Below, in pieces: positions 22,813 to 29,617 of a stretch of DNA of 64,000 bases. The notes under the pieces are model-generated. The model was not told the origin of the DNA, searched no databases, and worked only from the letters and a program-made list of their open reading frames with translations. The position numbers and the translations under genes were made by a program. The DNA is from Limnobacter humi (GTDB lineage: Bacteria; Pseudomonadota; Gammaproteobacteria; Burkholderiales; Burkholderiaceae_B): positions 496,001-560,000 of the forward strand of contig NZ_JANIGO010000001.1 of NCBI RefSeq assembly GCF_024518835.1. The letters run 5' to 3'. The stretch's first letter is position 1. Each line of letters begins with the position of its first letter.

Positions 22813-25800
22813 TCAAGCGGCCACTTTGGCGCCAGACTGCGCTGCCACATAGAGCTCTTTCAGTGCGCGGCGGTATTCGGTCGGGAATACCTTGACGAAC
22901 TTCTTGCGCTCTGTGGCCCAGTTGTCCAGGATGTCCTTGGCGCGCGGGCTGCCGGTGTAGCGGGCATGGCGTTCAATCAAGCCTTTCAGGATGGCTTCGT
23001 CGGTTTGACGTTCTGCTCCCCGGGCCACGCTGTGCCAAATTTCCTTGTCGCCCTTGGCTTCCTGCTCACTGGCGGTTTGCACACCTTCCAGCTCCACCTG
23101 CGCCATGTTGCAGCGCTTGGCGAACAAGCCATCGATGTCGTAGACGTAGGCCAAGCCACCGCTCATGCCCGCAGCAAAGTTGCGGCCAGTTTGGCCCAAC
23201 ACCACCACGGTACCGCCGGTCATGTATTCACAACCATGATCGCCAGTGCCTTCAATCACGGCCGCAGCACCCGAGTTGCGCACGGCAAAACGCTCGCCAG
23301 CCACACCACTCAGGAATGCTTCACCCGCAATGGCGCCGTACAGCACGGTGTTGCCCACAATCATGTTCTCGAAGCTTTCGCCGCGGAAGTCGTTGGTGGG
23401 GCGCACAATGATGCGACCACCCGACAGGCCCTTGCCCACGTAGTCGTTGCCTTCACCCACCAGGTCGGCGGTAATGCCGTGGGCCAGGAAGGCACCGAAG
23501 GACTGCCCGGCTGTGCCGGTGAACTGGATGTGGATGGTGTCGTCGGGCAACCCTTCATGGCCATAACGCTTGGCCACTTCACCCGACAACATGGCACCGG
23601 CGGTGCGGTTCACGTTCTTGATCGGGGTAATGAAGGAAACCTTCTCGCCCTTGTCCAGCGCGGGTTTGGCTTGTGCAATCAGCTTCTGGTCCAGGGCCTT
23701 GTCCAAGCCATGGTCCTGCGTGCCCGTGTGGCGCAGGGGTTCGGTGGTGCCGGTGGGCACCCACAGCAGGCGGCTGAAATCCAGACCCTTGGCTTTCCAG
23801 TGGGAAATGCCCTTCTTCATGTCCAGCAGGTCGGCACGGCCAATCAGCTCTTCAAAGCTGCGAATGCCCAGCTGCGCCATGATTTCGCGCACTTCATTGG
23901 CCACGAAGAAGAAGTAATTCACCACGTGCTCGGGCTTGCCGGTGAACTTCTTGCGAAGCTCGGGGTTTTGTGTGGCCACGCCCACGGGGCAGGTGTTCAG
24001 GTGGCACTTGCGCATCATGATGCAGCCTTCCACCACCAGCGGTGCGGTGGCAAAGCCAAATTCATCGGCACCCAACATGGCACCAATCACCACGTCACGG
24101 CCGGTTTTCATCTGGCCGTCCACTTGCACGCGAATGCGTCCGCGCAGGCCGTTCAGCACCAGGGTTTGCTGGGTTTCAGCCAGGCCGAGTTCCCAGTTGG
24201 TACCGGCATGCTTAATAGAAGACACTGGCGATGCACCGGTACCACCGTCCTGACCCGCGATCACCACGTGATCGGCCTTGGCCTTGGACACACCAGCAGC
24301 AATCGTACCCACACCCACTTCCGACACCAACTTCACAGACACGGAGGCTGCTGGGTTCACGTTTTTCAGGTCGTGAATCAGCTGGGCCAAGTCTTCAATC
24401 GAATAAATGTCGTGGTGCGGTGGTGGGGAAATGAGGCCCACGCCAGGCACGGAGTAACGCAGCTTGCCGATGTAGTCGGACACTTTGCCACCGGGCAACT
24501 GACCGCCTTCACCAGGCTTGGCACCCTGGGCCATCTTGATCTGGATTTGATCGGCCGAAGTCAGGTATTCGGCGGTTACACCGAAACGACCGGAGGCCAC
24601 CTGCTTGATGCGCGAACGCAGGCTATCACCTTTCTTCAAGGGGAAGTCAGCCACCACCACATCGCCCAGCTCGCTCTTCAGCGTAGCGCCTTCGGCAATG
24701 GGGCCATTGCCTGGACCAAACTTTTCCAGACCCGCACGCAGCTCGGTGCGGTAACGCTTGGCGTCCTCGCCACCTTCACCGGTGTTGCTCTTGCCGCCGA
24801 TGCGGTTCATGGCCACAGCCAGTGTGGAGTGTGCTTCGGTTGAAATAGAACCCAGCGACATGGCGCCGGTTGCAAAGCGCTTCACAATCTCTTCAGCCGA
24901 TTCCACTTCTTCAATCGGAATGGCTTTGGCGGCGTCCACACGGAATTCAAACAGACCACGCAGCGTCATGTGGCGCTTGCTTTGGTCGTTGATGATTTGC
25001 GCGTATTCCTTGTAGGTGTTGTAAGTGCCGCTGCGTGTGGAGTGCTGCAATTTGGCAATGGCATCGGGGGTCCACATGTGCTCTTCACCCCGGGTACGCC
25101 AGGCGTATTCGCCACCGGCGTCCAGCGCGCCAGCCAACACGGGGTCGGGGCTGAAAGCGGCCTGGTGAATGCGGATGGCTTCCTCGGCCACTTCAAACAC
25201 ACCAATGCCTTCCACCTTGGTGGGTGTGCCGGCAAAGTAGGCGTCGATGAAGGCTTGGTTCAAACCCACCGCTTCAAAAATTTGCGCGCCGGTGTAGCTC
25301 ATGTAGGTGGAAATGCCCATCTTGGACATCACCTTCATCAAGCCCTTGCCCACCGCCTTGATGTAGTTGTACACGGCCTTCTCGGGGCTCAGGTCGCCAG
25401 TCAAGCCCTTGCTCATGTCGGCAATGGTTTCCATGGCCAAATAGGGGTGCACGGCTTCGGCGCCGTAACCGGCCAGCAATGCAAAGTGGTGTACTTCGCG
25501 GGCAGAACCGGTTTCAACCACCAGGCCGGTGGACGTGCGCTGGCCTACTTTGACGAGGTGCTGGTGAATGGCCGATGTGGCCAACAAGGCGGGAATGGCG
25601 ACGTGGTCACGGTCCACCAGACGGTCGGAAATGATCAGGATGTTGGCACCGTTGTTCACGGCGTCGCGCGCTTCGGCACACAGGGAAGCCAAACGGGCCT
25701 CAATGCCTTCCTTGCCCCAGGCCACGGGGTAGCAAATGTTGAGTTCATGGCTCTTGAACTTGCCGCCCGTGAACTGCTCGATGTTACGGATTTTGGCCAT

Positions 25801-27534
25801 GTCCTTGGAGGTGAGCACAGGCTGGCCCACTTCCAATCGCATCGGCGGGTTGATGTTGTTCAGGTCCAGCAGGTTGGGCTTGGGCCCAATGAAGCTGTTC
25901 AAGCTCATCACGAGGTTTTCGCGGATCGGGTCGATCGGCGGGTTGGTCACCTGGGCAAACAACTGCTTGAAGTAGTTATACAGGGGCTTGAGCTTGTTGG
26001 ACATGACGGCCAGCGGGCTGTCGTTGCCCATGGAACCGGTGGCTTCTTCAGCCGACACCAGCATGGGCGCCATCAGGAACTTCAGGTCTTCCTGGGTGTA
26101 GCCAAACGCTTGCTGGCGGTCCAGCAGGCTTTCACGCGGCTGTACAGGCTCGGGTTGGCCTTCCACTTCATCCAGCTTCACGCGGATGGTGTCAATCCAC
26201 TGCTTGTAGGGCTTGGACGACGCGAGCTGATTTTTCAGTTCGTCGTCGTTGATGATGCGGCCGGCTTCCATGTCGATGAGGAACATTTTGCCGGGCTGCA
26301 GGCGCCACTTCTTGACGATTTTGCTTTCGGGAATCGACAGGGTGCCAGACTCTGAAGCCATCACCACCAGGTCGTCTTCGGTCACGATATAACGGGCGGG
26401 GCGCAGGCCGTTGCGGTCCAGCGTGGCACCAATCTGCTTGCCGTCGGTGAAGGCCAGGGCGGCGGGGCCGTCCCAAGGTTCCATCATGGCCGCGTGGTAT
26501 TCATAGAAGGCGCGACGGTTGTCGTCCATCAGGGTGTGCTGTTCCCAAGCCTCAGGCACCATCATCATCATGGCCTGTGCAATGGGGTAGCCAGCCATGA
26601 CCAACAGTTCCAAGCAGTTGTCGAAACAGGCGGTGTCGGACTGGCCCTCAAAAATCAGCGGGTAGAGTTTTTGCAGGTCATCGCCCAACACGGCGCTCTT
26701 CATCACGCCTTCACGGGCGCGCATCCAGTTGAAGTTGCCCTTCACGGTGTTGATTTCACCGTTGTGGGCCAGCATGCGGTAGGGGTGGGCCAATGGCCAT
26801 TCGGGGAATGTGTTGGTCGAGAAGCGCTGGTGAACCAGGGCCAGGGCTGACACGCAGCGGGCATCTTGCAGGTCGAGGTAGTACTCGCCCACCTGGTTGG
26901 CCAGCAGCAGGCCCTTGTACACAATGGTGCGGGCGCTCATGGAGGGGGTGAAATATTCGGTGCCGTGGGCCAGGTTCAGGGCCTTGATGGCGTGCACGGC
27001 GCGCTTGCGGATCACATACAGTTTGCGCTCCAGGGCATCGGTCACCATGATGTCGCGGCCACGGCCAACAAACACCTGGCGAATCACCGGCTCTTTGGCG
27101 CGCACGGTGGGGCTCATGGGCATGTCAGCATTCACCGGCACATCACGCCAGCCCAACAACACCTGGCCTTCGGCCTTGATGGCGCGCTCCATTTCCTGTT
27201 CGCAGGCGATGCGGGACGCGGTTTCTTTCGGCAGGAACAACATGCCCACGCCGTATTCACCGGCTGGTGGCAGTGTCACGCCCTGCTTGGCCATTTCTTC
27301 GCGGAAGAAGGCATCAGGAATTTGAATCAGGATACCGGCACCGTCGCCCATCAATGGGTCGGCACCCACGGCGCCCCGGTGGTCCAAGTTTTCCAGAATT
27401 TTCAGGCCACTGGCGATGATGTCGTGGGTCTTCTTGCCCTTGATGTGGGCCACAAAGCCCACGCCGCACGCGTCGTGTTCGTATTCTTTGGAGTACAGGC
27501 CGTGTTGTTCGGCTGCCTGGCGAATGTCTTGCAT
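22813..27534 (-). CDS. gltB: Glutamate synthase (NADPH), large subunit
   Basis: GltB makes two glutamates from glutamine and 2-oxoglutarate. The 1573 residues give the normal architecture: class II amidotransferase with the nucleophile Cys23 in DACGVGF (exposed after propeptide removal), central domain, FMN-binding synthase domain ([25 protein letters not shown]), 3Fe-4S Cys set C-x5-C-x4-C in [12 protein letters not shown], and the C-terminal GxGxG beta-helix domain. ATG 27534 is chosen because GGAG lies 8 bases upstream; the frame also has a TTG two codons earlier. It is the first gene of gltBD. Confidence 0.98.
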
Positions 27535-27670
27535 GTGCAATCTCCGGAATGCGGAGGACTGTTCGCCGGCCTGAAATGGGTGAGGCGCAACAAATCCCCA
27601 TGAAATTCAGGGTCTTTGACCCAAGTGAACACGCACTGTACTGCAGTGCGGCATGCAGATCAAGGAAAAT

Positions 27671-27728
27671 AAATGGGGTCTGACCCCATTTTAGAACCCC
27701 CACCCCAATTTATAAAATTTAATTGGGG
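27671..27728. repeat. REP-like palindrome pair next to the RAYT-family gene
   Basis: Two dyads lie side by side. The first is AAATGGGGTC/TGACCCCATTT (27671-27691). The second is CCCCAATT / AATTGGGG (27703-27710 with 27721-27728), with AT-rich bases between. The GGGGTC-GACCCC core is of the kind found beside RAYT genes. They sit 35 bases past the end of the RAYT-like gene, between it and gltB. Confidence 0.7.
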
Positions 27729-27762
27729 ACAGACCATTGAAAAATGCACACTATTCGTGCAT

Positions 27763-28464
27763 TCAGCGCACAGATTCGGCCTTGGGGGGTCGTCCGCGCG
27801 GCCGCGGGCGGGCCGAGCGGTTGGCCAAAAGGTCCACCTGCTGGAAAAAGGCGTCGTCACTCCACAACCAGCCTTTGTGAATGCACTCGCTCAGCTCGCG
27901 CTGGTCCCTCTCGGAAAACCCCTGCTCACTGAACTGGCGGTATCGGCTTTGGCGTTCAAATGGCGTATTGCCCAATGCCCAGTAACTGGGCAAATCGGCC
28001 AGCCAAGCTTCATTCACCACGCCGGCATGGGCGGCATAGCTGCTCCAGGGGTAGGTGGCCAGGTCTAGGGTTTGATGCACCCGCAGGGCCAACTGCTCGA
28101 CAAACAGGCAGGCCTTCAAACTGCGGGACCCCGGCTGCACCACGGTGGACTTGAACCGGGGCTCCCACACGGGGCCACCCAATGCTGGCTGTGCGTCTTT
28201 GATGACTGGCGAAAAATGCCGATTGAGGTTTTGCACAAACCGACCGGCCTGTTGGGCATCATTGACCTGCAGCATGACCATGGCACCCACGGTGGCCAAA
28301 CCATAGGCATGCACCTGCACACCCTCTTCCCGTGCACTCACCGGCAGGCGGTCGCGAAAAAAGGCAAAGGCCTCGCGGGTTTTGAATACATCCTGTCCAC
28401 CCACGCCCTGCAGCTCCAACACCACTGGGCACTCCGGGATGAAAAGACGAGCCTGCCGGGCCAT
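27763..28464 (-). CDS. RAYT-family (REP-associated Y1 transposase) protein with lost catalytic motifs
   Basis: The 233 residues follow the layout of Y1-type REP-associated transposases: MARQARLFIPECPVVLE at the start, RFVQNLNRHF, PVWEPRFKSTVV, YPWSSYAAHAG and a basic C-terminus PRPRGRPPK. The residues needed for single-strand DNA transposition are missing. The H-u-H motif position reads VGAMVMLQV instead of a NHxHLL-type sequence, and the Tyr-containing segment before ELNPVRA reads CLFVEQLALRV. The reading frame is nevertheless open over the full family length. It could be a domesticated REP-binding protein or a dying gene. It follows dgt at 16 bases on the same strand. Confidence 0.8.
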   Translation of the reverse strand: MARQARLFIPECPVVLELQGVGGQDVFKTREAFAFFRDRLPVSAREEGVQVHAYGLATVGAMVMLQVNDAQQAGRFVQNLNRHFSPVIKDAQPALGGPVWEPRFKSTVVQPGSRSLKACLFVEQLALRVHQTLDLATYPWSSYAAHAGVVNEAWLADLPSYWALGNTPFERQSRYRQFSEQGFSERDQRELSECIHKGWLWSDDAFFQQVDLLANRSARPRPRGRPPKAESVR

Positions 28465-28480: not shown

Positions 28481-29617
28481 TTAGCCAGGCAGGCCAGGCA
28501 CCGACAGGCGCTGGTGTTCTTTCATGGCATAGCGGTCAGTCATGCCAGCAATGTAATCGGCAATGGCGCGGGGCGCATCGGTTTGGGCGCGCTGGAAAAA
28601 CTGTGGGGGCAGCAGACGCGGGTCTTCCATGAAGGTGGCAAACAGGTCTTGCACCACCCGCCGCGCTTTCATGGTTGCGCGCAACACCTGGTAATGCTGG
28701 TACAGGCTTTTGCGCAAAAAAGCTTTCAACTCGCGATTGAGCTCGGCCATCTCATCGCTGAAGCCGATGAGTGCTGGGGCTTGCTGAACATCGGCCACGC
28801 AAGTGGGCTGGTGCTGTTGAATGCGTCGGTCCGACTCGGCCAACAGGTCGGACACCAAGGCATTGATGACCCCGCGCACGGTTTCGTGAATGAGACGTCG
28901 GCCTTCCAGCTTGGGATGACGTACCAACACGCGGTCCAGGTGCAACTTGAACAGACGCACCTCGGCACACTGTTCCAGTGAGATGAGGCCTGAACGCAGC
29001 CCATCGTCAATGTCGTGGTTGTTGTAGGCAATTTCATCGGCCAGGTTGGTGACCTGCGCTTCCAGCACGGGGCGGCGGTTGTCCAGAAAGCGCTTGGCCA
29101 CATCACCCAAACGCTCGGCATTGGGGCGGCTGCAGTGCTTCAAAATGCTTTCGCGGGTTTCAAAACACAGGTTCAACCCGTTGAAGCTGGCGTACTTTTC
29201 TTCCAGGTCATCCACCACCCGCAGGCTTTGCAGGTTGTGCTCAAACCCACCGTGGGGCTGCATGCAGTCGTTGAGCGCGTCCTGCCCGGCATGGCCAAAC
29301 GGGGTGTGGCCAAGGTCGTGCGCCAGGGCAACCGCTTCGGTCAATTCCTCATTCAGGCCCAGGTTGCGGGCAATGCTGCGGGCCAGTTGGGCCACTTCCA
29401 GACTATGGGTGAGGCGGGTGCGGTACAAGTCGCCCTCGGTGTTGACAAACACCTGGGTTTTGTATTCCAACCGGCGAAATGCTGCGCTGTGAATGATGCG
29501 GTCGCGATCGCGTTCAAACTCGGTGCGGCCAAACGGCGGCTCCTCATTGTGCACACGGCCTTTGGTGTTGGCCGACGACACCGCATAGGGCGCCAGGTTG
29601 CGCTCAAAGTCCAGCAT
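28481..29617 (-). CDS. dgt: Deoxyguanosinetriphosphate triphosphohydrolase-like HD protein
   Basis: This is a 378-residue HD-domain dNTP triphosphohydrolase, which splits dNTPs to nucleoside and triphosphate and helps balance the DNA precursor pool. Metal ligands are H71 ([10 protein letters not shown]), H100-D101 (AHDLGH) and a later Asp in [12 protein letters not shown]. The GHTPFGHAG motif follows the HD pair. The length and start fit the shorter dGTPase-like class of Burkholderiales rather than E. coli Dgt (about 505). It follows aroB at 18 bases in the aro-pil cluster, a conserved betaproteobacterial order. Confidence 0.95.

Follow-up and report, generated by a model that had tools for sequence, protein, structure and literature searches.

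Here we describe a gene of Limnobacter humi whose product, here called X, is a RAYT-related protein of the TIRYT type that has lost its catalytic residues. X was probably captured as a DNA-binding regulator of gltBD, with a transposon end serving as its operator and DNA cutting having become dispensable. For the wider group we lean, with less assurance, towards a scenario in which a Burkholderiales clade regulates its assimilation of ammonia by means of a captured HUH-type transposase, the transposon's own end having been turned into the gltB operator; the operator would have been in use before catalysis was lost, and that loss would then have occurred independently at least three times. The evidence comes from the window, a stretch of 64,000 nucleotides of the L. 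humi genome (contig NZ_JANIGO010000001.1, positions 496,001 to 560,000), and from comparison of the locus across related genomes.

On the minus strand of the window, dgt (dGTPase-like; 28481..29617) ends 16 nt 5' of X (27763..28464) and is followed, beyond X, by gltB, encoding the glutamate synthase large subunit (22813..27534); both neighbours are presumably dgt and gltB, names that we assigned on recognising the protein sequences. The start of gltB is probably the ATG at 27534, the ORF caller having taken an upstream TTG at 27540. Locus comparison identifies gltB as the conserved neighbour of X in relatives. Two features mark the end of the protein, a basic, AT-hook-like tail that falls under the Pfam cut-off (codons R-G-R-P-P-K, 27781..27798, minus strand) and, further inward, the C-terminal signature of the lineage found in the gltB slot (Y161-W162-A-L-G-N-T-P-F169, 27958..27984, minus strand). 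The initial annotation had described the frame as intact over the family length, and X is indeed open across 233 codons, subclass 2.1 of the TnpA-Y1 family having a median length of 238 aa in the excerpted part of its survey (PMC6006769).

That X has lost both the HUH motif and the catalytic Tyr, another point of the initial annotation, is confirmed by alignment with catalytically intact relatives, some of them at the same locus. Codons V59-G60-A61-M62 (28279..28290, minus strand) stand opposite N-H-V-H of intact slot relatives in the HUH column, and F121-V122-E123-Q124-L125-A126 (28087..28104, minus strand) opposite Y-I-D-Q-N-P in the catalytic Y-x-x-x-N-P column, the codons having been checked in both cases. 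G60 and M62 replace HUH, F121 replaces the catalytic Tyr and Leu the metal-ligand Asn, so that X retains neither His, nor the Tyr, nor the third metal ligand. Catalytic residues at shifted positions, which would have undone that point, were ruled out by the alignments and by a scan of the whole protein: the HUH motif has not moved, because X contains no H-x-H anywhere.

Single-sequence searches with X against Pfam, NCBIfam and the PDB returned no transposase, no Y1_Tnp and no PDB match, and a Y1_Tnp search of the host genome gave no match; Y1_Tnp was matched by 5 of 30 family members, and a family profile reached the PDB entries of ISDra2 TnpA (2xm3, E 2.4e-4) and E. coli TnpAREP (4er8, E 1.6e-3). 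The Y1 transposase core fold is predicted to be present in X on the basis of an AlphaFold model (pLDDT 88.8, pTM 0.86) whose best structural match is 4er8 (Z 13.8, 2.8 A over 154 residues; Foldseek E 6.2e-6). The C-terminal part modelled alone reached pLDDT 68, too poor for a structure search, and the intact slot copy L019, from the same place as L095, shares 32% identity with X over residues 1-229, indicating full-length homology, to which a tree joining X with intact members also points. After the Y1 transposases, the next structural matches of X were Thg1-type tRNA-His guanylyltransferases (Z ~7), a likeness that perhaps reflects a shared palm-like fold only.

A protein search found X in 41 of 60 genomes, host included, and relatives at ~30% identity include catalytically intact RAYT-type proteins, some lying directly 5' of gltB. 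Among the 15 other Limnobacter genomes searched, 13 match X; the frame has no stop in 12, and in one (G015) a TAA follows the last conserved residues. The two without a match are 85% and 65% complete. Within the genus, the stop codons or frameshifts that the initial annotation would have counted against its reading were thus not seen, apart from that TAA beyond the conserved part. Profile searches extended the family to 99 of 121 genomes of the window's family and 61 of 120 of the order. With any family match counted as X, 98 of the 121 genomes hold both X and gltB, 17 neither, 5 gltB only and 1 X only. In one genome (G134, locus L084) X occurs without gltB and its signature reads YR.GNTPL, as if it were relaxing after target loss.

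For classification we used 28 loci from the 60-genome search, 100 from the profile searches, 80 named loci (the best 80 of at least 592 relatives) and 20 from outside the order; with the fragment L060 dropped and 23 duplicates (same first 200 residues) removed, 227 loci gave 204 distinct proteins. Catalytic residues are damaged in 141 of these, all of slot type, of which 139 carry the GNTP/GDTP signature and the other two read DDTPF; gltB lies just 3' in the fetched locus of 119. Eleven of the 204 are intact and lie at gltB, all with the signature YWxLGNTPF, and 52 are intact copies at other loci, with neither the signature nor gltB in the fetched locus, four of these loci having little downstream sequence. 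Named damaged forms include Limnobacter, Burkholderia, Paraburkholderia, Caballeronia, Trinickia, Massilia, Undibacterium, Noviherbaspirillum and Aquabacterium; intact slot forms include Collimonas plus MAGs named Glaciimonas and Herminiimonas. Slot copies with one motif left also exist: L108 and L206 have lost Tyr and kept HUH, and eight distinct copies have lost HUH and kept Tyr.

Some members of the slot lineage depart from the common form. Eleven Paraburkholderia slot proteins (L145, L147, L149-L151, L153, L155, L162, L178, L192 and L193) measure 326-347 aa, exceeding the others by ~100 residues yet retaining the signature. The draft G065 contains two slot-type copies (L044, L045), each adjoining gltB and each with DDTPF instead of GNTPF, and is possibly a mixed bin. 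Locus L152, from a record titled Rhodospirillales, shows the order aroB-dgt-X-gltB plus the operator, and is probably a misnamed MAG.

A tree of 109 rows was built without the catalytic columns; it takes one row per genus in family f1, keeps six Limnobacter loci and the extra copies L039, L045 and L064, leaves out L041, L069, L076, L085, L091, L092 and L133 (truncated, split or of another subclass), and draws 25 rows from the 80 named loci and no row from the 20 loci outside the order. In this tree a single clade (98%) unites 28 intact copies from other loci; the slot copies fall outside it, as does the intact non-slot row L132, on a very long branch. With no regain allowed, catalysis was lost 7 times on the best tree, 5 times with branches below 80 collapsed and 3 times with only starred branches kept.

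Comparison of substitution rates between relatives, a check that the initial annotation had proposed, shows X to be under purifying selection, with dN/dS medians of 0.06-0.12 in damaged lineages. By the NG86 method, and with pairs kept only at 0.05<dS<1.5, the median was 0.085 for Limnobacter (26 of 78 pairs in the usable range), 0.061 for damaged copies of the Burkholderia/Paraburkholderia group (987 of 990 pairs), 0.123 for four other genera of the family (41 of 45 pairs) and 0.064 for intact Collimonas (3 of 3 pairs); L018 stood outside the Limnobacter set, and Undibacterium and f31 gave zero usable pairs.

Between X and gltB the window carries two operator-like sites. The proximal one, AAATGGGGTCtGACCCCATTT at 27671..27691, is a palindrome that presents both half-site orientations and is terminator-like on the minus strand; the distal one, GGTCTGTCCCCAATTAAA at 27718..27735 on the minus strand, is of TIR type, its reverse complement holding GGGGACAG, an instance of GGGGWSAS. 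Next follow a predicted gltB -35 box (TTGATC, 27658..27663, minus strand) and, across a 17-bp spacer, a predicted -10 box (TACAGT, 27635..27640, minus strand). The REP-like palindromes that the initial annotation saw beside the gene are therefore real as structures, AAATGGGGTC/GACCCCATTT lying at 27671-27691 and a partner at 27718-27735; their being REPs did not hold, since the genome search it suggested found the palindrome core exactly once in 3.2 Mb. Genome-wide, the site motif showed no excess of matches in the host (6 versus 8 in a reversed-pattern control), which together with the single copy rules out the REP reading, and GGGGWSASACC was matched 4 times versus 17 in its reversed-pattern control. 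As the control exceeds the matches, only the local pair is unusual, not the word itself. Other single matches to the site motif, at C24:48347, C12:371549 and C12:373037, are candidate second targets, their number being not above control. Of the suggestion that X performs a non-catalytic job such as binding REP sequences, the part that stands is selection, as seen in dN/dS, with DNA binding the best guess at the job; in place of REPs there is a two-site element at a single locus.

Both sites of the window fit GGGGWSAS. Across Limnobacter the exact word is found in only 4 of 15 loci, and GGGTCAGACC occupies the same place in the X-gltB gap of 14 of the 15 distinct loci. The X-gltB gaps of other lineages contain lineage-specific versions of the site pair, differing in flavour from one lineage to another. 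An EM motif search started from random windows and trained on 27 of 55 groups converged on G.T.TGTCCCTAATTAAA; groups were genera inside the window's family and single genomes or loci outside it, and a promoter was called positive when its summed two-site score exceeded the 99th percentile of 560 shuffles. By this measure the element was present in 26 of the 27 groups used for training, in 27 of the 28 remaining groups and in 128 of 131 gltB promoters adjacent to X, with L050, L131 and L210 below threshold; one strong site can suffice, the weaker site reaching no more than 5 bits in 15 of the 128, a set with many Paraburkholderia-type promoters. Because some of the remaining groups lie near ones used in training, the test was repeated across families, with first-order resampling as the control: a motif learned from 26 groups outside the window's family picks out 25 of 26 genera within it, a motif trained inside marks 26 of 26 groups outside, and both mark 0 of 25 order-level gltB promoters that lack X.

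The sites also keep a regular arrangement. Of 149 promoters, 91 have the site cores inverted at 40-42 bp and 26 have them direct at 47-49 bp, 9 show other spacings and 23 have no called pair; under relaxed scoring an inverted pair 41-42 bp apart emerges in 16 of these 23, nearly all of Burkholderia/Paraburkholderia type, and each of the 16 has the promoter pattern in its usual position. The pattern TTGnnn-N17/18-TAnnnT follows the proximal site in 116 of the 117 standard-spacing promoters (7.2 expected), beginning 21-23 nt past the proximal core in all 91 inverted pairs and 14-15 nt past it in 22 of 25 direct pairs. The distal site thus lies ~62-64 nt 5' of the -35 box in both layouts, and a site pair with near-fixed geometry before the predicted gltB promoter is evident from these promoter comparisons. 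The proximal Limnobacter palindrome contains both half-sites, which suggests how one layout could become the other.

Excerpts of Di Nocera et al. (PMC3733652) place GGGGWSAS in the repeats that flank TIRYT genes, and in the portion of Quentin et al. (PMC6006769) bearing on them most TIRYT are assigned to subclass 2.1 and found without REPs. With no TIR in its training set, the operator motif exceeds 9 bits upstream of 27 of the 52 intact other-locus copies (1.3 expected), downstream of 14 (0.8 expected) and on both sides of 9 (0 expected); thus the operator resembles the transposon ends of the family. Perfect inverted repeats of at least 12 nt span the gene in 24 of these 52 copies, versus direct repeats in 5, and GGG[AT][CG]A lies within 18 of the 24. 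Upstream of X, GGGGWSAS occurs in 0 of 15 Limnobacter loci, and upstream of the other damaged slot copies TIR-type motifs occur in 3 of 124, below the 13.0 expected, so that no more than one end has been preserved. X accordingly does not have the flanking pair of terminal inverted repeats that marks TIRYT; its sites lie downstream only.

X is remote in a number of genomes: it lies 2.7-45 kb from gltB, across on its other side, more than 6 kb off (Undibacterium) or on a separate contig. All 26 of these cases (16/16, 2/2 and 8/8) retain the element at gltB; since it persists after X has moved, it is not simply a leftover beside the gene. Scored with the matrix from other families, 15 of 16 remote cases pass; one remote case (G085) has a single clear site, its weaker site reaching no more than 5 bits. 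At the level of sequence, then, the sites match the TIR motif and are retained when X is remote. In one Limnobacter lineage (G003; loci L016, L139 and L235) an insertion splits X from the operator, which stays before gltB, 2.7 kb off.

Where X is missing, the sites are nearly always missing as well. Across genomes without slot-type X, 1 gltB promoter in 30 carries the element; by group, it was found at gltB in 0 of 25 examined order-level genomes without slot-type X and in 0 of 4 X-less genomes of genus g2. The 25 derive from 39 X-less order-level genomes with a gltB match, loci having been obtained for 28 and L282-L284, with a distant GltB, being excluded; G144 and G146 were counted as X-less by elimination. 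Family members occur elsewhere in 13 of the 25, only part of those copies having been typed, so an intact relative does not bring the sites with it. In 14 of the 25, dgt lies directly 5' of gltB, an arrangement that looks like the empty insertion site of X. The genome G027 (locus L236) has the operator pair and no X detectable even at E 10; this draft of 120 contigs is 97% complete, and the case reflects either an assembly gap or a loss of X with the sites retained. On the gltB tree X and the sites each change state 4 times, and the well-supported branches supply 2 independent contrasts, a number with which a sign test of the link between X and the sites cannot reach significance. Phylogenetically the association of X and sites in these sequences is weak, depending on few independent events and having one exception (G027).

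A mechanism consistent with these data would begin with a RAYT of the TIRYT kind (subclass 2.1) inserting between dgt and gltB in the ancestor of one large Burkholderiales group. Its downstream terminal inverted repeat would have landed before the gltB promoter and become a two-site operator, and a single insertion could have supplied both gene and sites. X would have retained the fold, the recognition of the repeat and the C-terminal domain with its lineage signature YWxLGNTPF, and would regulate gltBD from next door or from afar, probably upstream of RNA polymerase; provided that the promoter prediction holds, the sites are located around -98 and -50 to -58. That X binds the site pair is our inference from this arrangement, and it may likewise control gltB transcription in a direction to be judged from the same geometry. 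The simplest form would be a protein dimer on two sites upstream of RNA polymerase, hence X would probably be an activator; a repressing or looping role is possible. Once binding was under selection, the cutting residues may have been free to drift and been lost several times independently, and the presence of the sites at intact slot copies suggests that their use predates the loss of catalysis.

Several other explanations of the same data deserve weight. The site pair might be the operator of another, unrelated gltB regulator, X being merely an old neighbour conserved for other reasons. This is unlikely, though it would account for X often lying kilobases off while the sites remain at gltB, for the sites of G027 without a detected X and for the small number of independent joint changes of X and sites; against it stands the resemblance of the motif to the TIR motif of X's intact relatives (the GGGGWSAS consensus of the excerpted PMC3733652), and the sites are absent both from genus g2 (0/4), which has gltB, and from 25 of 25 examined order-level genomes without slot-type X. 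Slightly more doubtful is the idea that X still performs a task on single-stranded DNA or RNA, such as binding hairpins at forks or in mRNA, with the link to the gltB promoter being secondary. The E. coli relative processes folded single-stranded REPs, as the accessible part of PMC8266576 has it, and the predicted fold of X is kept; against this, motif matches in the host genome are not above control, the direct-repeat lineages have no perfect palindrome and the sites lie upstream of the predicted transcription start.

Two further readings make X or its palindrome a relic or a by-product. AAATGGGGTCAGACCCCATTT followed by ATTTTCC gives a terminator-like score on the coding strand, and the palindrome lies just 3' of X in most fetched loci, as would suit an intrinsic terminator of a dgt-X unit or a leftover transposon end without a present role. 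We regard either as very unlikely: a terminator needs no conserved sequence, no second near-fixed site and no fixed distance to the -35 box, 26 promoters have direct repeats, the element is still at gltB with X elsewhere (26/26), and a neutral leftover would hardly last across a large part of the order. The second site, the conserved spacing and the fixed promoter distance rule out a terminator as the sole explanation. Decay of a transposase kept by chance is scarcely credible; the catalytic residues are gone and a handful of family members at other places are cut short or interrupted by stops, yet the dN/dS medians, the match in 99 of 121 family genomes and the open frames speak strongly against it and rule out a pseudogene, and the frame was retained through several independent catalytic losses.

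Lrp and IHF belong to protein families other than RAYT, and X, being RAYT-related, differs from both. They are of interest here because in E. coli gltB is under transcriptional control by known factors: the excerpted PMC1784095 has Lrp and IHF controlling transcription of gltBDF. In what was available of PMC3733652 and PMC6006769, X resembles TIRYT, that is TnpA-Y1 subclass 2.1 or RAYT group 1, in length, core fold, C-terminal extension, low copy number and GGGGWSAS-type repeats, and intact members occur at the same gltB slot; unlike TIRYT, X has lost HUH, Tyr and Asn, and its repeats are downstream only, doubled and in a near-fixed frame to the promoter. The closest structural match of X, with Z 13.8 across 154 residues, is E. 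coli TnpAREP (4er8), a catalytic protein associated with multicopy REPs; X lacks both the catalytic residues and the REPs, and carries an additional C-terminal part. The 2017 study by Bertels et al. is said to be the main paper on RAYT groups. In Nunvar et al. 2010 (PMC2817692), in the part available, HUH and Tyr were conserved in the authors' own RAYT set, and the excerpt of Quentin et al. (PMC6006769) states that sequences without HuH/Y motifs or a complete core were set aside as probably non-functional, 722 of 924 being kept. Among the matches listed in the open-licence literature we found no link between a transposase and gltB and no RAYT-derived regulator. The nearest published idea found, judging from excerpts of PMC13418256, is that of the TldR proteins, nuclease-dead TnpB regulators, which in principle present the same case of a transposon protein inactivated several times and turned into a regulator tied to a host gene. 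TldR proteins are RNA-guided and derive from TnpB, whereas X goes back to a Y1/HUH-type protein and would act through a DNA operator resembling its transposon end.

RAYTs have been described as domesticated proteins whose cellular job is open; if the proposed role of X is correct, one branch of them gains a job, a target gene and a DNA site, and with a concrete job, a named target and a named site the question of RAYT function would become directly testable. Members without HUH and Tyr, set aside by survey as probably non-functional, could then be selected genes, and X would be a DNA-operator counterpart to the RNA-guided TldR. From a physiological standpoint, soil- and plant-associated Burkholderiales would possess an unsuspected regulator of nitrogen assimilation. 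From an evolutionary one, the steps that lead from a mobile element to a transcription factor would be readable in living species.
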